DNA of 44,636 nucleotides from NCBI GenBank assembly GCA_024709105.1, contig JANJXJ010000056.1:1-44636 (forward strand), given 5' to 3'. Positions within the stretch are counted from its first letter, which is position 1. Every line of letters begins with the position of its first letter. The translations under genes were made by a program, and so were the position numbers. This document shows, piece after piece, positions 1,845 through 26,359 of the stretch. A model generated the notes under the pieces. That model ran no database searches. It saw nothing but the letters and a program-made list of their open reading frames with translations, and was not told where the DNA came from. This DNA comes from Lentimicrobium sp. (lineage in GTDB: Bacteria > Bacteroidota > Bacteroidia > Bacteroidales > Lentimicrobiaceae).

Positions 1845-4253
1845 ATGAAATTCAAACTGCTGCCGGTTATTCTGGCACTGCTGCCATTTTTCACGATGGC
1901 TCAATTTACAATCAAAGGCAGGGTAATTGACGAACAAACTGCTGTTCCGCTGCAGGGTGCACACATCAGTTTTAACGGGAGGCTGGTCAAGACAACATCT
2001 GATGAAAAAGGAATGTTCGTTATAAAGAATGTCAAACCCGGCAATCACAAGCTGAAGGTTTCCTATATGGGCTACAAAACCTGGGAAGCCAGTTTCGGCA
2101 TTGAAAGCGACCGCACCATGCTGATATCCATGGAAAGTACCAGCATATTAGCTGAAGAAACCATTATCTCGGCAACCCGTGCCGGAGAAAAAACTCCGGT
2201 AGCTTTCCAAAACCTCAGCGGTGAAGAGATAAATCGCAAAAACCAGGGCCGCGATATCCCCTTTCTGCTCGAGCAGATGCCTGCAACTGTTGTAACATCT
2301 GATGCCGGAGCCGGAGTAGGTTACACCGGAATCCGCATCAGGGGAACCGACATGAACCGGATAAACATAACGGTTAATGGAATTCCGCTGAACGACGCCG
2401 AGTCGCACAGTGTATTCTGGGTAAATATGCCAGATTTCGCTTCTTCGGTTGGCAGCCTGCAGGTTCAGCGGGGAGTGGGAACCAGCACCAACGGAGCCGC
2501 TGCTTTTGGCGCAAGCATTAATCTGCAAACCGAAACACCATCACCAGAGTCATATGCCGAAATAAGCAGCAATGCCGGATCATTCAACACTTTTCGGAAT
2601 ACTTTGCAGGTGGGCTCAGGACTCATCGGCGGCAAATGGGCTTTTGATGCGCGCTTGTCCAAATTAAACTCCGATGGTTTTATTGACCGGGCCTTTTCAG
2701 ACCTGAAGTCATTTTACGTTTCGGGTGGGTATTACGGAAACAATACCATATTAAAAGTCAATATCTTTTCAGGTTACGAAAAAACCTATCAGGCCTGGGA
2801 CGGAATTCCTTCGTATATTCTTGCTGAGAACCGGACATACAATGGCATTGGCATGTACACCGATAACAAAGGCGAAACCAGATTTTATGACAACGAAACC
2901 GACAATTATCAGCAGGATCATTACCAGATGTTGTTTTCGCAAAGGTTTTCAGCCCACATAACCGGAAACTTTGCCCTGCATTATACCAAAGGTTTTGGCT
3001 ATTACGAGCAATACAAGGATTACGACAACCTCAGCAATTATCTGATTGATCCTGTGATTATCAACGATTCAGTAAGCATCAGCCAAACCGACCTTATCCG
3101 CCGGAAGTACCTCGACAATAATTTTTACGGCTTTACATGGTCGGTGAATTATGAGAAAGATAAACTGAATATAGTGGCAGGTGGCTCGGGCAATCGCTAC
3201 GAGGGCTTGCATTACGGCGAGGTTATATGGGCTGAGTTTGCGCAAACTGCAGGTTTGAATCACAGGTGGTACGAAGGTACCGGTGACAAGCAGGATTTGA
3301 ATTTCTTTGTAAAAACAAATTATGCCATTCTCAAACAACTTAATCTTTATGCCGATCTCCAGGTGAGAAGCATAAATTATGAAATTGATGGTATTGATGA
3401 CGACTTAAGAGATATTGCCCAAAAGCACGATTTTCTGTTTTTTAACCCCAAAGCAGGTTTACATTACACTCTCAACAACAGAAACAGCTTGTATTTCGGT
3501 TTTGCGATGGCAAACCGGGAGCCGAATCGCAGCAATTACACCGACTCCGATCCTTCAAAACCAGCTCCCGTTGCCGAAACCCTTTTCGACTATGAATTAG
3601 GTTACAACTTCAGAACAGAAAACATCAATGCTTCGGCCAACCTTTATTACATGAAGTACCGCGATCAACTGGTATTAACGGGACAGATCAACGATGTAGG
3701 TGCGGCCATTATGAGCAATGTGCCAGACTCCTATCGCAGAGGGATTGAACTCAGCGGCGACTTTAAACTCAGCAAAAGCTTCAGAGCCAACGCAAACCTC
3801 ACATTGAGCAGCAATAAAATAGAAAACTTCACCGAATTTATTGATGACTGGGACAACTGGGGCACACAGCTTGAAAACCAACTCGGCACCACCGATATTT
3901 CGTTTTCCCCTGCAACCATTGCTGGTGGCTCATTAACATGGAATTTTGTCAAAGGTCTGGATGCCAGTCTTAATGGAAAATATGTTTCCAGACAGTACGT
4001 TGACAATACTTCATCAGCTGAAAGAAGCCTTGACCCATATTTTGTAAGCAACTTCAGATTAAGTTACACAGTTCAGCCCGGATTTTTGCGCGAACTTCAG
4101 CTAAGTTTTAATATAAACAACCTGTTCAATACAGAGTATGAAACCAATGCCTGGGTATACAGATACCGCAGCGAAGGGCAATTTGCCGTTTATGACGGAT
4201 ATTTCCCCCAGGCAGGAATTAACTTTATGGCAGGGCTGAATATAAAATTCTGA
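1845..4253 (+). CDS. TonB-dependent outer-membrane receptor, thiamin uptake
   Basis: An 802-aa TonB-dependent receptor. Residues 1-19 are a signal peptide ending at Ala-Gln, about 22-98 a carboxypeptidase-regulatory-like beta domain (IKGRVIDEQTAVPLQGA), about 108-229 the plug (RIRGTDMNRINITVNGIPLND, QVQRGVGTSTNGAAAFG), and the rest a 22-strand barrel ending in the outer-membrane signature MAGLNIKF. No TonB box was identified with certainty. Its mRNA leader is a TPP riboswitch, so the cargo is inferred to be thiamin or a phosphorylated or precursor form. TPP-controlled receptors of this type are known from comparative genomics of Bacteroidota. No inner-membrane thiamin transporter or biosynthetic gene adjoins it, so it is monocistronic, closed by the terminator at 4271. 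Confidence 0.92.
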   Translation: MKFKLLPVILALLPFFTMAQFTIKGRVIDEQTAVPLQGAHISFNGRLVKTTSDEKGMFVIKNVKPGNHKLKVSYMGYKTWEASFGIESDRTMLISMESTSILAEETIISATRAGEKTPVAFQNLSGEEINRKNQGRDIPFLLEQMPATVVTSDAGAGVGYTGIRIRGTDMNRINITVNGIPLNDAESHSVFWVNMPDFASSVGSLQVQRGVGTSTNGAAAFGASINLQTETPSPESYAEISSNAGSFNTFRNTLQVGSGLIGGKWAFDARLSKLNSDGFIDRAFSDLKSFYVSGGYYGNNTILKVNIFSGYEKTYQAWDGIPSYILAENRTYNGIGMYTDNKGETRFYDNETDNYQQDHYQMLFSQRFSAHITGNFALHYTKGFGYYEQYKDYDNLSNYLIDPVIINDSVSISQTDLIRRKYLDNNFYGFTWSVNYEKDKLNIVAGGSGNRYEGLHYGEVIWAEFAQTAGLNHRWYEGTGDKQDLNFFVKTNYAILKQLNLYADLQVRSINYEIDGIDDDLRDIAQKHDFLFFNPKAGLHYTLNNRNSLYFGFAMANREPNRSNYTDSDPSKPAPVAETLFDYELGYNFRTENINASANLYYMKYRDQLVLTGQINDVGAAIMSNVPDSYRRGIELSGDFKLSKSFRANANLTLSSNKIENFTEFIDDWDNWGTQLENQLGTTDISFSPATIAGGSLTWNFVKGLDASLNGKYVSRQYVDNTSSAERSLDPYFVSNFRLSYTVQPGFLRELQLSFNINNLFNTEYETNAWVYRYRSEGQFAVYDGYFPQAGINFMAGLNIKF

Positions 4254-4270
4254 TATAATCTTTTAAAAAG

Positions 4271-4298
4271 AAAGCCGGCCAATCCGGCTTTTTTTTTG
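4271..4298 (+). terminator. Rho-independent terminator after the thiamin receptor
   Basis: AAAGCCGG / CCGGCTTT stem (8 bp) with a 5-nt loop, followed by a run of T, 17 bp after the stop codon. Confidence 0.9.
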
Positions 4299-4314
4299 TT
4301 AGCTACCTGCAAAT

Positions 4315-4333
4315 ATTTAGAACCAGTCTAAAT
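4315..4333. promoter_or_regulatory. Palindromic candidate operator upstream of the copper-type locus
   Basis: A perfect 7-bp inverted repeat, ATTTAGA-N5-TCTAAAT. It is followed after a few bases by TTACTTTG (4338-4345), a 7/8 match to the -7 consensus TAnnTTTG. The palindrome would therefore cover the -33 region, the usual place for a repressor. The binding protein is not encoded nearby and is unknown. Confidence 0.5.
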
Positions 4334-4396
4334 TTCCTTACTTTGACAATGTGATTATTTAAATATTTATTTTTATGCATCTGATTTGCAAGTCAA

Positions 4397-4804
4397 ATGT
4401 ATCGGACAGTGTTTGCAGTTTTTCTTTCGTTCCTGGTCTTGCTTCAAACGCTGAACCAAACAGGAATTTTGCTGACTTTTAAGCTCAGACAGGAATTTAT
4501 TGCAAAAAACTTATGCGTTCAGCGCGATAAAAAAGTAAATTCCTGTAATGGAAAGTGTCATCTGAAAAAAGAACTGAAAAAGTCCGCAGAACAAGAAAGT
4601 GAAACGTCGAAACCATATCCGGCAAAAACCAAAACAGAAACATTTGACTCACCTTTTCTGAATAATTTATGTTCGTTTGTATTCTATTCCTTTTCTTTAA
4701 AGAATAAAAGGCTGAATGAACCTGCCTTAACATTTATTTCAACTTATATAGCCGATATTTTCATCCCGCCTGATCACTCTGATGATGTAATTTTTGTTGC
4801 ATAA
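4397..4804 (+). CDS. Small membrane or secreted protein with CNGKC motif, upstream of a copper-type TonB receptor
   Basis: The 135-residue protein has an N-terminal hydrophobic segment (about 5-27), then C40 and a CNGKC motif (C50, C54). A Lys-rich stretch (HLKKELKK) and a C-terminal part with hydrophobic residues follow. Short proteins of this form often precede metal-type TonB receptors in Bacteroidota. Their molecular role is not established, and I infer a metal-related function in the periplasm or at the membrane from the cysteines and from the neighbour. It is 119 bp ahead of the receptor start and in the same direction, with no terminator between, so probably cotranscribed. The palindrome at 4315 lies just upstream. 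Confidence 0.7.
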   Translation: MYRTVFAVFLSFLVLLQTLNQTGILLTFKLRQEFIAKNLCVQRDKKVNSCNGKCHLKKELKKSAEQESETSKPYPAKTKTETFDSPFLNNLCSFVFYSFSLKNKRLNEPALTFISTYIADIFIPPDHSDDVIFVA

Positions 4805-4923
4805 CTGCAACCCGGGTAAATAATTATCTTATTTCCAACTGATTTTGTGGAATCAAATCTCTTTGCATAGCCGAAAAAACAGCTGTGCTGGTGGCTGATT
4901 TCACAAAACACAAACACATTTTT

Positions 4924-7173
4924 ATGAAATTCAATTTACAAACACTTCTCATTGTACTATTACTGACTTTTGGTTTTCAGCTTCATGCCCAACGTTTTAA
5001 ATTGGTTGACTTACATTCGGGACAGCCTATTGATGGAGCTACATTCAAATACGGAGACATATCCGGAATCAGTGACCAAAAGGGCTTTATTTCAATAACA
5101 TTTATCGAAAAAGTTTCGATGGAGATTTCGCACCTGAATTATGGAAGCTGGAGTTTGTCGCCCGAAGAAGTAAAAACAGCACTCAAAAGTAGCATCATCT
5201 ATCGTGAGCAAATCAGTTTGAATCTGTTGCCGGTTACAGTGGTTGCCATCCATAGTAACCCGGGCAATAAAGCGGTGCTGTCGTTAAACTCGCGCGACAG
5301 ACTTTCACACGACGGAGCAGATATACTCAATAGCATTGAAGGATTCAGCTCAATCCGAAAAAGTGCTTCTTACGGTTTCGATCCGGTTTTCAGAGGTTTC
5401 AAAAATGAGCAACTCAACATCATCATCAACGGGGCGCAAACGGCAACAGCCGCTTGTCCCAACCGAATGGATCCGCCTTCCAGCCAGGTTGCCCCAAATA
5501 TGATCAGCCATATAGAAGTGCAAAAAGGCCCTCATTCTCTTAGGTATGGCAACTCATTTGGTGCTACTGTAAATTACATCCCGGTTGCACCCAGATTTGG
5601 CGACAAAGCAGATGTATATGGTAGAATAACAGGAAGTTATGAAACCAATGGCGAAATCATCAGAAACGAAGGGGTGGTTGGCATCAGCGGCAAAAAGTAT
5701 GACCTGAGTCTTTTTGGATCTTTCGGAAAAGGATCCGATTACAAGGATGGCGATGCTAATTCCATCCCTGCAAGATTCTCGCGCAGCAGTGCAGGCATCA
5801 ATCTGGGATTAAAACTAACTGACAAACAATTCATTAATGCTTCTGCTACCCGAAATTTTGCAAGAGATACCGATTTCCCTGCTTTACCAATGGACTTGAG
5901 AAGCGATGATACCTGGCTATTTAATGTCAGACATGAAGCAAACCTTTCGGGAACTTTGCTTAAGTCATGGAAATCGGCGGCATATGCCACCATAGTGGAC
6001 CATAAAATGGACAACTTGCTCAAAAATCTGAATCCCAGAATAATGAACGCCAGCACTCCGGCAAAAACATCAACCTGGGGTGCAAGAACCGAAGGGCACT
6101 GGAGTGCGCAAAACTTCTCATTGTATGCCGGTGGAGATTTCAGAATAGAAAACTCTCAGGGCGAACGAACCCGCGAATTTATAGCCGGTCCGAATGCAGG
6201 AAAAATATTCTACGATAATGTATGGCAAAATGGAACCATTTCGCGCAGCGGATTATTCGCCGAATTCAAGAAGAATTATCAGGCTGTTACAGCAATCCTT
6301 TCCGGAAGGCTGGAACTGAATCAGTCAGGAATCGGAGACGGTGCCAGTGAATTTATTAATAACTATGGCGAAACCAGCGAAACACAAGTAAATCCGGCGC
6401 TGAGCCTTGGTGCTGTTACCCTGTCGCAAAACGGCTATTCTGCCGGCCTTTGGCTTGGAACTGCCCGCCGCAGCGGAAGTATGACAGAACGTTTTATCAA
6501 CTACTTTCCTGTTGGCCAGGATGCTTATGAATTACTTGGGAACCCGCTTATCAAACCCGAAACAAACAATCAGGCCGATCTTAATCTGAGTTACAAATCA
6601 CCTAAAACCATTATCTCTGCCGATATTTTTGCTTCTCTGGTAAATGATTACATTTCTGCAGTGATTGACACCAGTCTCAAGCCCAGGCTGATGGGCCCTG
6701 GTGTGCGCAGGTTTGTGAATATAAAAAGTGCTTTCAGAACAGGTTTTGAGCTTAGCTGGAAACAAACCATCATGAGTGTTATGCAACAGAAAGTTGCAAT
6801 TGCCTATACTTACGGTCAGAATACTGTAACCGATGAACCTCTTCCCGAAATAGCTCCCATGGAGTTCAGGTATTCACTCACCGGAGCTTTTTTCAAAGAA
6901 AAACTTCGGCCATCTCTTCACCTGAGACATACACTCGAGCAAAACCGGGTCTCATCTGAATTCGGTGAATCAAAAACTCCGGGATTTACTTTGCTTGATG
7001 TGAATCTTTATTGGCAAATCACAAAAATCATTAGCGCAGGTGCAGGAGTTACCAATTTGTTTGACGTTGCTTATTACGAGCATCTGAATCGTCCGATTGG
7101 GGGAACACCGCCTAAACCCATCTATGCACCCGGAAGGAGCATTTTTGTTTCACTTTCAGTTGATCTGTATTAG
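4924..7173 (+). CDS. TonB-dependent outer-membrane receptor, OprC-like, probable copper uptake
   Basis: A 749-aa receptor. I chose the ATG at 4924 because a standard signal peptide (MKFNLQTLLIV... ending HAQ) follows at once; the open frame reaches back to 4885. After a short beta domain (about 24-100) comes the plug with NGAQTATAACPNRMDPP, then a barrel. C178-PNR-M182 is the CxxxM copper motif known from the Pseudomonas OprC plug. H360-K-M362 (DHKMDN) fits the second, HxM, motif of OprC. Together these are good evidence for copper binding, provided the two sites are close in the fold. The protein ends with VSLSVDLY, lacking a terminal Phe but with an aromatic Tyr. It meets the leftward serine hydrolase only 9 bp after its stop. 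Confidence 0.88.
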   Translation: MKFNLQTLLIVLLLTFGFQLHAQRFKLVDLHSGQPIDGATFKYGDISGISDQKGFISITFIEKVSMEISHLNYGSWSLSPEEVKTALKSSIIYREQISLNLLPVTVVAIHSNPGNKAVLSLNSRDRLSHDGADILNSIEGFSSIRKSASYGFDPVFRGFKNEQLNIIINGAQTATAACPNRMDPPSSQVAPNMISHIEVQKGPHSLRYGNSFGATVNYIPVAPRFGDKADVYGRITGSYETNGEIIRNEGVVGISGKKYDLSLFGSFGKGSDYKDGDANSIPARFSRSSAGINLGLKLTDKQFINASATRNFARDTDFPALPMDLRSDDTWLFNVRHEANLSGTLLKSWKSAAYATIVDHKMDNLLKNLNPRIMNASTPAKTSTWGARTEGHWSAQNFSLYAGGDFRIENSQGERTREFIAGPNAGKIFYDNVWQNGTISRSGLFAEFKKNYQAVTAILSGRLELNQSGIGDGASEFINNYGETSETQVNPALSLGAVTLSQNGYSAGLWLGTARRSGSMTERFINYFPVGQDAYELLGNPLIKPETNNQADLNLSYKSPKTIISADIFASLVNDYISAVIDTSLKPRLMGPGVRRFVNIKSAFRTGFELSWKQTIMSVMQQKVAIAYTYGQNTVTDEPLPEIAPMEFRYSLTGAFFKEKLRPSLHLRHTLEQNRVSSEFGESKTPGFTLLDVNLYWQITKIISAGAGVTNLFDVAYYEHLNRPIGGTPPKPIYAPGRSIFVSLSVDLY

Positions 7174-21041: not shown

Positions 21042-21665
21042 ATGATTACCATTATTATAATTGCCATAACTTCGGTGGTTTCCATTCTGGCATTTAGTAA
21101 TCGCGAACTTCAGGGAAAATTGTTGTTCAGCCCGATTATGATTGCAGAACACCGGCAGGGATATCGTTTCCTCACTCATGCGTTGGTTCATGCCGATTGG
21201 ATGCACCTGATAATAAACATGTTTGTGCTGCTTTCGTTTGGCAGGGCTGTTGAAGAATTCTTTTCATATTTTTTCGCTGCAAAAGGCTGGTACTTCTATA
21301 TTCTGCTGTACATCGGAGGAATACTGATTTCTTCAACACCTTCTTACGTTCAGCACAAGGACAACAAATTTTACCATGCTGTAGGAGCCTCCGGTGCGGT
21401 TTCGGCCGCAGTTTTTGCCAGCATCCTAATCAGCCCCTTATCAGGAATTAGATTTATTTTTATTCCATTTGATATTCCGGCGTTCATTTTTGGAATATTA
21501 TACCTGATTTACTCAGCCTATATGGCTAAGAAAGGCAACGACAATATCGGACACGACGCTCACTTCTGGGGTGCTGTGTTCGGGTTTGTCTTTACCATAA
21601 TACTAAAACCAGCTTTGTTTATGGCTTTTGTTCAGCAAATTCTTTCATTTGCTGGAATTGCCTAG
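21042..21665 (+). CDS. Rhomboid family intramembrane serine protease
   Basis: A 207-residue polytopic membrane protease that cuts transmembrane segments of other proteins. The nucleophile is S117 in VGASGAVSA (GxSG), the catalytic histidine is H174 in HDAHFWGAVFG, and the oxyanion-region motif HADWMHLIINM (about 50-60) is present. Six membrane helices fit the basic rhomboid core. It follows the 270-residue membrane protein at 3 bp, which makes that protein a possible substrate or partner (inference). Its 3' end overlaps yqgE by 4 bp. Confidence 0.92.
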   Translation: MITIIIIAITSVVSILAFSNRELQGKLLFSPIMIAEHRQGYRFLTHALVHADWMHLIINMFVLLSFGRAVEEFFSYFFAAKGWYFYILLYIGGILISSTPSYVQHKDNKFYHAVGASGAVSAAVFASILISPLSGIRFIFIPFDIPAFIFGILYLIYSAYMAKKGNDNIGHDAHFWGAVFGFVFTIILKPALFMAFVQQILSFAGIA

Positions 21666-22225
21666 TTCATGATGGGATCCGGCGGGTAATTTACCCAAAG
21701 TTTAAACTCTTTTCCAAGCTTCTTCAGCATCTGGCTCCAGAGATCGCGTGTATCAGGAGCTATTACCTGATTGCGGTTGGTAAGCGACACTACCCATGAT
21801 TTCTCTTCCAGCTCTTTATCCAGTTGTTTGGCTGACCAGCCGGAATATCCAACAAAAAACCTGACCTCATCAGGACGAATTCCGCCGCTTTTCACCAACT
21901 CTCTTACAGATTCTATATTTCCACCCCAATAAAGACCATCCATAATTTCTGAGCCATCTTCAATCAAATCGGGGCGGGTATGAATAAAAAACAAACTGTC
22001 GGTTTTAACCGGGCCTCCCAGAAATACAGGCGCATCGAAACCTGCAAATTCGGCGGCAATATCGCTTAGCTTTACATCAACAGGCTTATTGATAATTAAA
22101 CCAAAAGAGCCTTCTTCGCTGTGATCTGCAAGCAGCACAACCGATTTCTTGAAATAAAAATCCTGCAAAAATGGCACAGATATCAATATTCTGCCTGCCA
22201 GTGGTTTAATATTCAGAGGTTCCAT
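21662..22225 (-). CDS. YqgE/AlgH family protein (DUF179)
   Basis: A 187-residue soluble protein. It shows the family hallmarks GRILISVPFLQDFYFKKSVV at the N-terminus, GSFGLIINKP, FLGGPVKTD, and FFVGYSGWSAKQLDKELEE. Bacteria usually have one copy; the biochemical role is unknown, although it is often linked to transcription regulation by old AlgH work. Its 3' end overlaps the convergent rhomboid gene by 4 bp. Confidence 0.94.
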   Translation of the reverse strand: MEPLNIKPLAGRILISVPFLQDFYFKKSVVLLADHSEEGSFGLIINKPVDVKLSDIAAEFAGFDAPVFLGGPVKTDSLFFIHTRPDLIEDGSEIMDGLYWGGNIESVRELVKSGGIRPDEVRFFVGYSGWSAKQLDKELEEKSWVVSLTNRNQVIAPDTRDLWSQMLKKLGKEFKLWVNYPPDPIMN

Positions 22226-22349
22226 AGTTCAGATAGTTTTGCAAAGTTTTTTGTCTCCAAAATCAATTGCATAAATATAACAATAAACACTGCCCGAAAC
22301 AAACTTTAACCTAATTTTTTACAAACATCATAATGTCAGCAGGTATTGC

Positions 22350-22357
22350 TATTTTTG
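22350..22357 (+). promoter_or_regulatory. -7 promoter element for the murL-murD2 operon
   Basis: TATTTTTG, a full TAnnTTTG match, 43 bp before the murL ATG. No good -33 box was found. Confidence 0.5.
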
Positions 22358-22400
22358 CCACTAACTGTCAGGCATCAATTTTTATACCATCAAACACACG

Positions 22401-23771
22401 ATGCAAAGAAAACAATCGGCTCATTTTGAGGAGTTAAGAAGAAAATACCCTGTTTTTCTTTACGAGAACTTTAGTTCAGAATTTAATGAAACAGGGTTAA
22501 AAATAAGTTTTGATTTTAACATCCCGGGATTGATGCGCTTTGCCCCTTCGGCAATTTTTCATTTTGGAAACAGAAAAGAGCATTACATCAACAATTATAT
22601 TAACAACAAAGGGCTTGCAGATCTTATAATTTTCCACATTGGAATGATTGAAATGGTTAGCTACTGGAAATCGGTATGTTCTCCGGAAATCAGCATTAAC
22701 AACCATTATATTAATCCGGAACAGGCAAACTGGTGGAGCAAGTTGTATTACCACGGACTTGGTGAATTCCTGTTCCTGAACTCTATTCAAATTGAAGAAA
22801 ATAATTTTGTTGGGTTCCGCTCTCAGGGTAATCCTTCCTCTCCTATACACTGGAAAGGAAACGAAGAAGCATTTATTGTTCCGGTTGGCGGTGGAAAGGA
22901 TTCAGCAGTTAGTCTGCAGCTACTAATGAATGCAGGCAAGCAGGTTACACCTCTCATTATTAATCCGAGAGGTGCCACCATTGATACTGTTGATGCTGCA
23001 GGTATAGATATAAATGAAACTATTACTATTACAAGAACCCTTGACAAGGGAATACTTCAATTGAATGAACAGGGATTTTTAAACGGCCATACCCCATTCT
23101 CTGCCATGCTGGCTTTTTATACCCTGCTGGCTGCATTGCTCAACGGGAATAAAAACATTGCCCTTTCCAATGAAGACAGTGCAAATGAGCCAACCATACC
23201 GGGCACTCAAATTAATCATCAATACTCAAAATCACTCACTTTCGAAAATGATTTCAGAGCGTATTACACCAAATACATCTCTGGAGACTTTAACTATTTC
23301 AGTTTTTTAAGGCCGCTTTCAGAACTTCAGATTATCTCCGTTTTTTCGAAACTTACAAAGTTTCACAATGTTTTCAGAAGTTGCAATGCCGGAAGCAAAA
23401 CCAATGAATGGTGCGGCAAATGCCCGAAATGTCTTTTCACTCACATCATGCTTTCCGCCTTTACAAGCATTGAATACGCCAACTCAATTATTGGAGCAGA
23501 CATGCTTAACAACCCTGAAATGAAAAAGCCTTTTGATGAGTTATGCGGGATAGCCGATATAAAACCCTTTGAATGTGTAGGAACTATTGATGATGTGAAT
23601 GCAGCTCTAAGTATGATTCTGACTAAGGAAGCAAATACGAATCCGGTTCTGCTGGAGCATTATAAACAGAAAATAAAACAATATCCGGTTGATATGTCAC
23701 TTAATGAACTTAGCCAGAACCACAATCTCACGAGTGATTTGGCGATCATCTTAAAAGAAGCTCTTTCATGA
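22401..23771 (+). CDS. murL: Probable UDP-MurNAc-L-Ala-L-Glu epimerase MurL
   Basis: A 456-residue PP-loop ATPase-like protein. The nucleotide motif GGGKDS is at 163-168 (VPVGGGKDSAV), SNEDSANEPT follows at about 256-265, and a C-terminal cysteine cluster is visible (C328, then C338-GK-C341-PK-C344). This matches MurL, known from Xanthomonas, which uses ATP to epimerise the L-Glu of UDP-MurNAc-L-Ala-L-Glu to D-Glu. The stop codon overlaps the ATG of a MurD-like ligase, the partner expected for this route. The best alternative is an unrelated PP-loop protein; the gene pairing argues against it. Confidence 0.85.
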   Translation: MQRKQSAHFEELRRKYPVFLYENFSSEFNETGLKISFDFNIPGLMRFAPSAIFHFGNRKEHYINNYINNKGLADLIIFHIGMIEMVSYWKSVCSPEISINNHYINPEQANWWSKLYYHGLGEFLFLNSIQIEENNFVGFRSQGNPSSPIHWKGNEEAFIVPVGGGKDSAVSLQLLMNAGKQVTPLIINPRGATIDTVDAAGIDINETITITRTLDKGILQLNEQGFLNGHTPFSAMLAFYTLLAALLNGNKNIALSNEDSANEPTIPGTQINHQYSKSLTFENDFRAYYTKYISGDFNYFSFLRPLSELQIISVFSKLTKFHNVFRSCNAGSKTNEWCGKCPKCLFTHIMLSAFTSIEYANSIIGADMLNNPEMKKPFDELCGIADIKPFECVGTIDDVNAALSMILTKEANTNPVLLEHYKQKIKQYPVDMSLNELSQNHNLTSDLAIILKEALS

Positions 23772-25150
23772 AGAATCTGCTGCAACAATTGTTAAAAGAC
23801 AAAAAAGTACTGATTCTTGGCTACGGAAGAGAAGGCAAGTCAACATTCAGACTACTTCGCAGCTATTTCCCTGATGTTCAGCTTTCTGTTTCAGATTCCA
23901 ATCAAAGGCTGGCAGAGGAAAACGAAGAATTACGCGCGGAGAACATCACTGTTTTTTCAGGACAGGATTATCTGAAAAACATCAACCATTTTGACCTGAT
24001 TATTAAATCTCCCGGAATCTCTCTGTATAAATTGGGTATTGATATTTCACCTGAAAAAATCACTTCGCAAACAGATATTTTTCTTCAGGCGTATGCATCT
24101 CAAATCTGCGGAATTACCGGAACCAAAGGAAAAAGTACTACATCGTCATTGTTGCATCACATCACTTCCTGTTACAGCAGCAATACATTATTTGCCGGCA
24201 ATATCGGAATACCACTATTTGACCTTACAAGTAAAATTGACCACGGCACCAGAATTATCTGCGAATTGTCATCCCACCAACTTGAGCATATTTCCGTGGC
24301 ACCGCATATAGGCGTACTGCTTAATATTTTCCAGGAACACCTTGACCACTATTCTTCATACAAAGCATATCAGCTCTCCAAGCTAAAAATAGGGCAAAAA
24401 CAAGCAAATGACGATTACTTTTTAACCTCAGCAAACGATACTGTAATAAATTCTCTCCTGAAAGAATACACTTTACCGTCACAAGTTCTTCCTGCAACTT
24501 TAAGTGAATTAACAGGCATAGGCGCAGGATTAGTCAATGACTACTATACACTAAAAACCCAAAAAAACAGCTACCGGTTATTCCCTGCCAAACTAGAAAT
24601 TTCACTCCATGGGAAGCACAACCGGCTCAACGCAATAATTGCAGCATCATCAGCAGCACTTTCAGGGATTCCGGAGGAAGCTATCATTGAAGGTTTGCAA
24701 TCATTTAAACCTTTGAGACACAGAATAGAATTTGCCGGAGTTTTTAATAACAAAAAATTCTATAACGATTCCATTTCAACCATACCTGAAGCAACCCTGG
24801 CCGCCATTGATACTCTGCAACCAGTTCATACACTGATTCTCGGAGGTTTTGATCGCGGAATAGAATATTCAGCATTTATTAATCAAATCAGCAAATCCAG
24901 CATCCGGTACATTGTTTTTACAGGCCCTGCCGGTGAACGTATGTTTCGGATATTGAAGTCTGTAAATCATACTGGTGCACCATTCTATGAAATGGCACCG
25001 GATTTTGAAACAGCAGTTCTGCAAGCAATAAAGAACACGCCCAAAGGAGAAAAATGCCTGCTGTCTCCTGCCGCAAGCAGCTACGACAGGTTTAATAATT
25101 TTGAAGAAAGAGGAGATTTTTTCTGTGAACTGGTAAGTAAACAAAAATAA
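23768..25150 (+). CDS. murD2: MurD-family ligase, probable MurD2 (UDP-MurNAc-L-Ala:L-Glu ligase)
   Basis: A 460-residue cytosolic Mur ligase: N-terminal UDP-binding domain (LILGYGREGKST), ATP site GTKGKSTTS from 118, the segment ELSSHQLEH, HGKHNRLNAIIA (about 281-292), and the C-terminal domain with SPAASSYDRFNNFEERG. Canonical MurD carries NDSKATN in the region that handles D-glutamate. Here it reads N333-DSISTIPEAT, clearly different. With the upstream MurL and a 4-bp ATGA overlap, this indicates MurD2, which adds L-Glu to UDP-MurNAc-L-Ala before epimerisation. It lies alone, outside any mur/fts division cluster. If wrong, it would be an ordinary murD. Confidence 0.82.
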   Translation: MKNLLQQLLKDKKVLILGYGREGKSTFRLLRSYFPDVQLSVSDSNQRLAEENEELRAENITVFSGQDYLKNINHFDLIIKSPGISLYKLGIDISPEKITSQTDIFLQAYASQICGITGTKGKSTTSSLLHHITSCYSSNTLFAGNIGIPLFDLTSKIDHGTRIICELSSHQLEHISVAPHIGVLLNIFQEHLDHYSSYKAYQLSKLKIGQKQANDDYFLTSANDTVINSLLKEYTLPSQVLPATLSELTGIGAGLVNDYYTLKTQKNSYRLFPAKLEISLHGKHNRLNAIIAASSAALSGIPEEAIIEGLQSFKPLRHRIEFAGVFNNKKFYNDSISTIPEATLAAIDTLQPVHTLILGGFDRGIEYSAFINQISKSSIRYIVFTGPAGERMFRILKSVNHTGAPFYEMAPDFETAVLQAIKNTPKGEKCLLSPAASSYDRFNNFEERGDFFCELVSKQK

Positions 25151-25171
25151 AGCTCCTTGATGAAGGAGCTT
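25150..25171. terminator. Bidirectional terminator between murD2 and bTHX genes
   Basis: Perfect 9-bp stem AAGCTCCTT-GATG-AAGGAGCTT. The T-rich tail (TTTATTTTTG) is on the minus side, so it best terminates the leftward bTHX transcript, and may also serve murD2. Confidence 0.75.
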
Positions 25172-25197
25172 GGAATTCTGAGTTAACAGTTTAAATA

Positions 25198-25383
25198 TCA
25201 GGCTTCAGATGCTTTGGGTTTCTTTGGAGCTTTAGTTTTAACCGGTTTTTTATCAGCAGGCTTAACTTCTGCTTCCTGAACAACTGCGGTTACTTTGGGC
25301 TTGTTGGCTTTTTTGCGCCGGCTAACACCATATGAGCCCATAATAATCTTTCCCTTCTTCGATTTTTTGTCACCTTTTCCCAT
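25198..25383 (-). CDS. Small ribosomal subunit protein bTHX
   Basis: A 61-residue, very basic protein. The N-terminal MGKGDKKSKKGKIIMGSYGV is the bTHX (Thx) signature, a small protein lodged in the head of the 30S subunit. The C-terminal half is a longer Lys/Ala/Pro-rich extension (PADKKPVKTKAPKKPK), common in Bacteroidota versions. It stands alone, leftward, with a shared terminator. The start is certain from the motif at residue 1. Confidence 0.88.
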   Translation of the reverse strand: MGKGDKKSKKGKIIMGSYGVSRRKKANKPKVTAVVQEAEVKPADKKPVKTKAPKKPKASEA

Positions 25384-25626
25384 AGATCAAAAAGTTAAAT
25401 TGTTTAAAACTACAACAGTGGAATTACACTTTAAGCCATAATAACAAAATTAAGGCATTAATTCTGCCTGATTTGTTATTCCGGCAAAGGCAAAACCATT
25501 CTGTTTATCAGTGAAAAGAATTTCAGCAAGCGTAAAATTACAAAAAAAAGCGATTAAAGAGCGACAAAAATTGCAAGGATTAACAAATTGTTGAAAAAAG
25601 TAATACCATGTAATGGAAAGCATTAC

Positions 25627-25656
25627 TTGTTCAATGAAAAAAAAACTGTACTTTTG
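25627..25656 (+). promoter_or_regulatory. Promoter (-33 TTG, -7 TACTTTTG) for the TPR membrane protein
   Basis: TTG at 25627-25629, a 19-bp spacer, and TACTTTTG at 25649-25656 match the Bacteroidota pattern. It places transcription start near 25663, so the ATG at 25676 is the real start, not the one at 25613. Confidence 0.7.
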
Positions 25657-25675
25657 CGCGACAAATTTAAAACCA

Positions 25676-26359
25676 ATGGCAAAGAAGACTGATAACACTG
25701 AAGAAAAAATCATGGCAGTTGAGGAAGCCCTCAGCAAAACCGAAGTTTTTATCGAAAAAAACCAAAAAATCCTGGGAATAGTAATTGGTGCTATTGCACT
25801 GGTGGTTTTGGCATATTTTGGCTTTCAGCGTTTTTATTTAGCTCCCCGTGAGACACAGGCCCAATCACAGATGTTTATGGCCGAAAAATATTTTGAGCAG
25901 GATTCATTGAAGCTTGCACTCAATGGAGATGGCCAATACCCTGGCTTTCTTGAAATTATTGATGATTATGGCATGACAAAATCTGCCAAACTTGCTCATT
26001 ATTATGCAGGTATTATCTACCTGAATGAAGGGCAGTTTGAAGAAGCCATCAGTCATCTTAAAAAATTCAAAACCAAAGATGCTCTTGTTCAGCCCATGGC
26101 TCAAGGTGCAATAGGTGATGCATATATGGAATTAGGTAAAACTGCAGAAGCTGCTGATTATTATCTGAAAGCCTCAAAAATCAGTGAAAACGAGTTTACC
26201 ACTCCGGTGTTTCTGCAGAAAGCAGCCTGGGCATTTGAAGAAGCCGGAAACAATGCCAAAGCTCTGGAAGCTTACGATAGAATCAGAGTGGAGTTTCCCA
26301 GAAGTGCAGAAGCCCGCGATGTTGAAAAATACATCGCACGCCTGAAAGGTCAGCAATAA
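25676..26359 (+). CDS. Membrane-anchored tetratricopeptide-repeat protein (YfgM-like layout)
   Basis: A 227-residue protein starting MAKKTDNTEEKIMAVEE. A cytosolic stretch is followed by one membrane helix (about 32-51, ILGIVIGAIALVVLAYFGF), then TPR-type helices outside. Recognisable repeats are KLAHYYAGIIYLNEGQFEEAI, GAIGDAYMELGKTAEAADYY and KAAWAFEEAGNNAKALEAYD. The layout resembles YfgM, a periplasmic chaperone accessory to the SecYEG translocon, but the identity is inferred from layout only. The start is decided by the promoter at 25627. Confidence 0.78.
   Translation: MAKKTDNTEEKIMAVEEALSKTEVFIEKNQKILGIVIGAIALVVLAYFGFQRFYLAPRETQAQSQMFMAEKYFEQDSLKLALNGDGQYPGFLEIIDDYGMTKSAKLAHYYAGIIYLNEGQFEEAISHLKKFKTKDALVQPMAQGAIGDAYMELGKTAEAADYYLKASKISENEFTTPVFLQKAAWAFEEAGNNAKALEAYDRIRVEFPRSAEARDVEKYIARLKGQQ

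Follow-up and report, generated by a model that had tools for sequence, protein, structure and literature searches.

How does a bacterium with no recognisable glutamate racemase (MurI) supply its peptidoglycan with D-glutamate? The question is raised by two overlapping genes, murL and murD2, on a 44,636-nucleotide stretch of DNA from Lentimicrobium sp. (Bacteroidota; Bacteroidales; assembly GCA_024709105.1, contig JANJXJ010000056.1, positions 1 to 44,636 of the forward strand), hereafter the window. The pair very probably forms an alternative D-glutamate route of peptidoglycan synthesis that operates without glutamate racemase. MurD2 would ligate ordinary L-Glu first. MurL would then invert the attached L-Glu to D-Glu, with an adenylation step as hypothesised in the Xanthomonas work, and would so supply D-Glu to the wall without MurI. 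We infer the activities of MurL and MurD2; the route as a whole is drawn from sequence, predicted fold, residue signatures, the lack of a recognisable MurI and the mutual exclusion of MurL and MurI among relatives.

The murL and murD2 genes

The murL gene (22401..23771, plus strand) is an open reading frame (ORF) of 456 amino acids, identified by a match to the NCBIfam model NF041275, by its predicted fold and by motifs of the Xanthomonas sacchari MurL. Its PP-loop GGGKDS (residues 163-168; 22887..22904, plus strand) and a cysteine cluster, C328/C338/C341/C344 (residues 328-344; 23382..23432, plus strand), do not vary in two alignments, one of 20 and one of 32 sequences. The cluster, also common to the X. 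sacchari and Pseudonocardia homologues, is probably a metal site. Four bases, ATGA (23768..23771, plus strand), are read in the sequence as shared with murD2 (23768..25150, plus strand), an ORF of 460 amino acids recognised by its match to TIGR01087, its residue signature and its grouping with X. sacchari MurD2. The motif NDSISTIPEAT (MurD2 residues 333-343; 24764..24796, plus strand) places Ile at the position of Escherichia coli MurD K319. A preliminary description of this DNA, which proposed that the pair bypasses MurI, had located the ORFs, the overlap and these motifs correctly.

That description also named the first protein MurL, and a profile search agrees. Residues 82-427 matched NF041275, the Xanthomonadales equivalog model of MurL, with an E-value of 2.4e-71 and 240.6 bits, though under the curated cut-off of 700 bits. 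Identity to the annotated X. sacchari MurL is 28%, and GGGKDS, NHQxSK, CGxCPKC and KPFECVG are common to both. The protein has the PP-loop and Cys motifs by which MurL is broadly recognised, and it occurs together with MurD2 where MurI is absent. We regard it as a distant homologue that should work like MurL, and do not file it under NF041275. Named genomes contain at least 581 stretches that encode MurL; among the best 80 of these, the nearest contigs belong to a Lentimicrobiaceae metagenome-assembled genome (MAG; 53% identity) and to Bacteroidales UBA5281 (52%).

The structure predicted for MurL (pLDDT 91.6, pTM 0.92) had QatC and QueC as its best Foldseek matches in the PDB (E 3.6e-4 and 9.5e-4), with low TM-scores, 0.30-0.41, when normalised by the query; a sequence search of the PDB with MurL gave no match. 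QueC catalyses ATP-dependent activation of a carboxylate. Such chemistry would fit the adenylation proposed for MurL by the Xanthomonas authors, and a QatC/QueC-like PP-loop fold is in keeping with the AMP release reported for the MurL reaction (review PMC8788868, available text, in which MurL is described as having no known conserved domains). Thus, the window protein resembles the QueC/QatC PP-loop enzymes in predicted fold, and ATP use is expected, but its substrate differs from theirs.

MurD2 scored 300.5 bits against the TIGR01087 murD model, over the cut-off. The available text of PMC8788868 links three positions, D182, K348 and K319 in the E. coli literature numbering used here, to Glu stereospecificity. 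We read them in 44 MurD2 proteins of the order, these being the ones of sufficient length from the 54 MurL genomes described below. The first position is Glu in 43 of the 44, the second Arg in all and the third Ile in all. None of the three replacements occurs in any of 116 full-length MurD proteins from the division and cell wall (dcw) cluster. The window and X. sacchari MurD2 carry the identical Glu/Arg/Ile combination. The D182 and K348 positions correspond to E197 and R358 of Xanthomonas MurD2; the E197D/R358K exchange makes that enzyme a D-Glu ligase, and E. coli MurD K319T accepts L-Glu (PMC8788868, available text). In a tree, the MurD2 proteins of the window and of X. sacchari fall together (98 SH-aLRT) and E. 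coli MurD falls outside, a grouping of moderate weight given that E. coli MurD is the sole canonical sequence from beyond the order and that the X. sacchari branch is long. Hence, window MurD2 is no recent copy of dcw MurD. No MurD2 of the order is more than 31% identical to that of X. sacchari.

The two genes usually travel together. The MurL locus was read in 47 genomes; MurD2 was adjacent in 40, fused to MurL in 2 and unseen in the locus in 5. The fusion ORFs (L017 and L018; 937 and 876 amino acids) belong to two families and tie both functions directly to each other. The 4-base overlap found in the window recurs in 12 of the 45 unfused loci. A MurD place lies on another contig in G001 and G120, which are among the five, and also in G071 and G077, where the MurL locus was not read. 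As previously stated, the window's pair stands apart from the mur/fts cluster: murL-murD2 is on contig C31 and the dcw cluster is on C163. The promoter of its own that the pair had been credited with fared less well; sigma-70-like sites in 21600-25700 are at chance level (11 against 11.1 expected). A TAnnTTTG string at 22350 resembles the Bacteroidota -7 element and is a candidate for one. At the end of murD2, a palindrome (25150..25171, no strand assigned) resembles a terminator in the minus-strand direction; the signal is weak (6 such sites in the scan against 3.8 expected).

MurL, MurI and the ordinary MurD in the order

We searched the window's own draft genome (4.47 Mb, 239 contigs, 96.8% complete) for glutamate racemase. 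No match to PF01177 was found, nor any to TIGR00067 up to an E-value of 10, so that no murI is recognisable with two models; the same searches were positive in 10 and 11, respectively, of 14 control genomes. In a sample of 149 genomes from the order, 54 encode MurL, 89 encode MurI over the cut-off, none encodes both and 6 encode neither. The MurL count derives from 56 matches: G008 (a weak match in a genome with MurI) and G075 (a remnant) were dropped and G052 (cut by a contig end) was kept. In a sample of 296 genomes from the phylum, MurL was present at E<=1e-20 in the window's genome only, 3 of the 21 genomes listed being of the same order. On a tree of MraY and FtsW (123 genomes), the MurL/MurI trait changed at least four times. 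The most likely reading is that MurL-MurD2 took the place of MurI in one branch of the Bacteroidales. The proposed bypass of MurI is thus supported by a genome without MurI, exclusion across 149 genomes, residues of the Xanthomonas type, and adjacency in 40 of 47 loci plus two fusions.

Two genomes sit oddly in this picture. G086 is a MurI genome placed within the MurL clade of the MraY and FtsW tree, possibly a return to MurI or a tree error; the MurL profile search found nothing in it, and nothing in G015 (see below). In G075, what is left of MurL contains a stop, MurI is not found over the cut-off and dcw MurD is full-length; this genome is possibly caught between the routes.

The preliminary description had the pair replacing ordinary MurD as well. 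This part did not survive the search for a canonical murD in the same genome, which found a full-length gene in the dcw cluster. Located between mraY and ftsW, it encodes 447 amino acids, scores 390.9 bits against TIGR01087 (over the cut-off) and has intact catalytic residues. Across the order, dcw murD was readable in 141 of the 149 genomes. We scored copies of at least 370 amino acids as full and ORFs of 176-190 amino acids, matching the C-terminal domain only, as short; the short product is called MurD-C below. MurI genomes have 84 full copies and no short one. MurL genomes have 27 full, 21 short and 3 cut by a contig end. The six genomes with neither MurL nor MurI have five full copies and one short (G015). 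The remaining eight are MurL genomes G020, G077 and G129 and MurI genomes G017, G043, G057, G087 and G091; a full-length MurD place was seen in the last four and none in G017. D182, K319 and K348 are kept in all 27 full-length dcw MurD proteins of MurL genomes. The 15 full-length copies in the window's genus keep the catalytic residues examined, except for a D182 to Glu change in one.

Several observations weigh against the bypass. The absence of MurI rests on a draft genome in 239 contigs, 96.8% complete, and the racemase model gives a weak match, below its cut-off, in 10 of the 54 MurL genomes (25-43.5 bits; cut-off 146.65). The exclusion of MurI by MurL is strict yet based on few events. 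Window MurL, at 240.6 bits, falls short of strict NF041275 membership. E. coli MurD carrying D182E/K348R does not use L-Glu (PMC8788868, available text), so the residues alone are no proof of L-Glu specificity in MurD2. The organism's own full-length dcw MurD has all the D-Glu-type residues, and hence some D-Glu use may persist. D-Glu could also come from elsewhere. Three class IV aminotransferases were read in the genome, one of them ilvE-like; none reached the D-amino-acid transaminase cut-off of 277.45 bits, but the best, at 94.3 bits, remains a candidate source other than MurI. Another possible source is suggested by the promiscuous chlamydial DapF, which racemises glutamate (PMC5885031, available text).

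Taken to their limit, these points would make the pair a salvage or side pathway, bulk D-Glu reaching the full-length dcw MurD from an unrecognised source such as a promiscuous DapF or an aminotransferase. D-Glu salvage, or racemisation by a DapF-like enzyme, would explain why full-length dcw MurD is retained, and the conservation of D182, K319 and K348 in 27 of 27 such proteins, the chlamydial precedent and a class IV aminotransferase of unclear specificity all speak for it. Conversely, 21 MurL genomes lack a full-length dcw MurD, so that MurD2 is the sole recognised ligase there, and all 54 MurL genomes are without MurI over the cut-off. We consider that a mere side role for the pair is very improbable.

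The C-terminal part of dcw murD

The 22 short copies keep the place of murD. All 22 have ftsW at most 271 bases downstream, and in 21 of them mraY can be seen upstream. The gap from the mraY stop to the start of the short copy is 0-94 bases (-58 in G015), and a gap of 0-94 indicates that the front half of murD was deleted, not frame-shifted. In 14 of the 22, the start falls in the exact alignment column of Met266 of the full-length MurD from the window's genome. The MurD-C of G124 resembles the C-terminal domain of canonical MurD (PF02875), aligning to TIGR01087 positions 270-439. Unlike canonical MurD, MurD-C has no UDP-binding or ATPase domain and is encoded alone. PF02875 scores, taken for four of the 22, were 54.8 bits for G124, and 24.6, 22.6 and 18.8 for the divergent G001, G071 and G015 (gathering cut-off 28.4).

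Truncation was probably recurrent. On the MraY and FtsW tree, which covers 17 of the 21 short copies from MurL genomes, the full/short trait changed at least 14 times, and the starred branches force at least five changes for these copies. Full and short genomes are sisters, with support of at least 97, in the pairs G000/G124, G026/G140, G116/G094 and G148/G034. A count from a gene tree of the C-terminal part (180 columns) was discarded; that tree is poorly resolved and its starred branches force one origin only. Within the window's genus (19 genomes, 3 of which, G000, G005 and G124, were covered by the MurL and MurI search), 15 copies are full-length and that of G444 runs off its contig; the short copies are those of G005, G124 and G445, which form one clade (99/99). 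Besides the dcw copy, 17 of the 19 have a full-length MurD2-like place (residues checked in G000, G005 and G124). Outside the MurL group, G015 (L248/L356) carries a divergent short MurD-C together with mraY, ftsW and, upstream, a Mur-ligase-like gene that is presumably murE. Neither MurL nor a full MurD was found in it, nor MurI over the cut-off, and its source of D-Glu for peptidoglycan, if it makes such peptidoglycan, is puzzling.

We compared MurD-C genes in four congeneric pairs. The proportion of synonymous differences (pS) is 0.72-0.85, near saturation, and the proteins are 45-74% identical. For G005/G124, the non-synonymous proportion (pN) is 0.159 and pS is 0.716, with 40, 18 and 93 differences at codon positions 1, 2 and 3. 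MurD-C therefore looks like a working gene under purifying selection. The D-Glu-binding Lys, K348, is kept in just 6 of the 22, K319 in 16 and D317 in 22. Columns conserved at 80% or more include W337, P346, W349, I350, V371, A404 and F440 (numbering of the window organism's MurD). Loss of catalytic residues under purifying selection implies that catalysis is not the retained trait. The lone murD tail in these relatives suggests a second job of the C-terminal part of murD.

We propose, with our judgement evenly balanced, that the takeover by MurL-MurD2 freed dcw murD of its enzymatic duty but not of a second duty in the last ~180 residues. MurD-C would be translated separately in MurL genomes, from an internal start at Met266, as a non-catalytic part of the wall machinery. 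In several lineages the catalytic front half would then have been deleted, leaving mraY-murD-C-ftsW. MurD-C may act as a scaffold, for example by holding MurG, MraY or FtsW complexes together. The reported binding of Thermotoga maritima MurD, MurE and MurF to MurG and MreB (PMC6420597, available text) makes such a role plausible.

Three results bear on an internal start in full-length genes. The ratio of non-synonymous rates between the N-terminal and C-terminal halves has a median of 1.18 in 14 close pairs of the MurI group (of which G009/G127 includes one genome without MurI found) and 4.36 in seven pairs of the window's genus (Mann-Whitney p 3e-4). The four closest genus pairs (4.4-21) account for the difference, the three more distant giving 1.7-1.9 and two other MurL pairs 1.88 and 1.48; most MurI pairs are more diverged than those four. 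Met266 is present in all 15 full-length genus copies. There, a run resembling a Shine-Dalgarno (SD) sequence, GGGG in 12, GGAG in 2 and GGTG in 1, ends 11 bases upstream. This distance is longer than usual for an SD sequence, and in other MurL families the stretch upstream of Met266 is A-rich without an SD-like run.

The third result is synonymous constraint, computed with amino-acid-specific expectations and MurI control genomes; a raw codon-identity peak near Met266 was not accepted on its own because it depends on local amino-acid types. In the window's genus, constraint has two peaks, one over codons 1-15 at the true start and one around Met266. Of the 418 codon windows that begin at codon 16 or later, codons 259-273 rank first (11 thinned genomes; p 1e-4 against random codon sets), a p-value that, like those that follow, is not blind, the Met266-centred interval having been chosen after the peak was visible. 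In 26 other MurL genomes, 14 of the 418 are at least as high as the Met266 interval (p 0.0015). No such constraint was found in 84 MurI genomes (p 0.81), nor in the 62 of them having Met266 (p 0.65). One of three random MurI subsets had a moderate peak at Met266; among 40 further subsets, one was as extreme in rank and none in size. In MurL genomes beyond the window's genus, codons 35-49 have a higher synonymous-constraint peak (z 4.0). Together, the rates, Met266 with its SD-like run and the synonymous constraint suggest that the C-terminal part is selected separately even in whole murD.

Two other explanations compete with a second duty of this part. MurD-C genes could be decaying pseudogenes whose remaining frame is open by chance. 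By inspection, the NDSKATN and SPACASFD motifs have been partly lost in at least 9 of the 22, and the scarcity of K348 fits decay too; but the N-terminal half is physically gone, the frame is open in 22 of 22 at 176-190 amino acids between the usual neighbours, MurD-C is kept throughout the clade of G005, G124 and G445, and all four congeneric pairs bear the mark of purifying selection. Thus, we think decay improbable. A more serious, if still doubtful, competitor concerns the full-length genes. The constraint at codon 266 might reflect an RNA or DNA signal, such as an ftsW promoter or coupling, or chance, without any internal start. Synonymous constraint alone does not identify the type of signal, the peak at codons 35-49 is still higher in the other MurL families, and the SD-like run, 11 bases from the ATG and missing from those families, has letters partly dictated by Lys-Gly-Glu codons. 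Conversely, the peak coincides with the codon at which most stand-alone genes start, 84 MurI genomes have no such peak, and the unusual conservation in the genus extends over the whole C-terminal half of the protein. The 11-base spacing, and the coverage of 3 of 19 genus genomes by the MurL search, lower our confidence in a separately translated MurD-C.

Relation to known systems and significance

The closest known system is the MurD2/MurL pair of Xanthomonas oryzae (XOO_1320/XOO_1319), which shares with the window the gene pair, the PP-loop and Cys motifs, the residue signature and the lack of MurI, a likeness for which the X. sacchari homologues served as compared sequences. It differs in phylum and in sequence (MurL only 28% and MurD2 at most 31% identical to those of X. 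sacchari), and, unlike it, the order studied here keeps the canonical murD, in full or as a C-terminal domain. The MurL-MurD2 route itself is already known from other phyla. The available text of PMC8788868 confines its list of MurL bearers to some genera among the Gamma- and Alphaproteobacteria and the Actinobacteria, and Bacteroidota are not named in the available text of that paper or of PMC5808125. In the open-access literature we found no report of MurL in Bacteroidota, of an exchange of MurL and MurI within an order, or of a lone gene for the MurD C-terminal domain.

Three MurL homologues turned up in unexpected records. An 8.9 kb contig from human faeces, deposited as unverified Bacteriophage sp. 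(L208), encodes one with 41% identity at 3896-5233, and may be bacterial DNA. A mobilizable Pseudonocardia plasmid (L207) encodes another (23%) at 3764-5164, annotated as hypothetical; it has no annotated MurD-like neighbour within 9 kb, and perhaps acts on another substrate. A MAG titled Candidatus Enterocloster faecavium (L138) has a MurL 44% identical to that of the window, possibly through a wrong title or a mixed bin.

MurI, an otherwise essential enzyme, is apparently dispensable in a Bacteroidales branch known largely from metagenome assemblies, and the exchange of MurL and MurI is visible within one order. The leftover C-terminal domain of MurD is a natural experiment in which the catalysis of a Mur ligase and its possible structural role come apart; the question stems from the reports of MurD, MurE and MurF binding to MurG and MreB.

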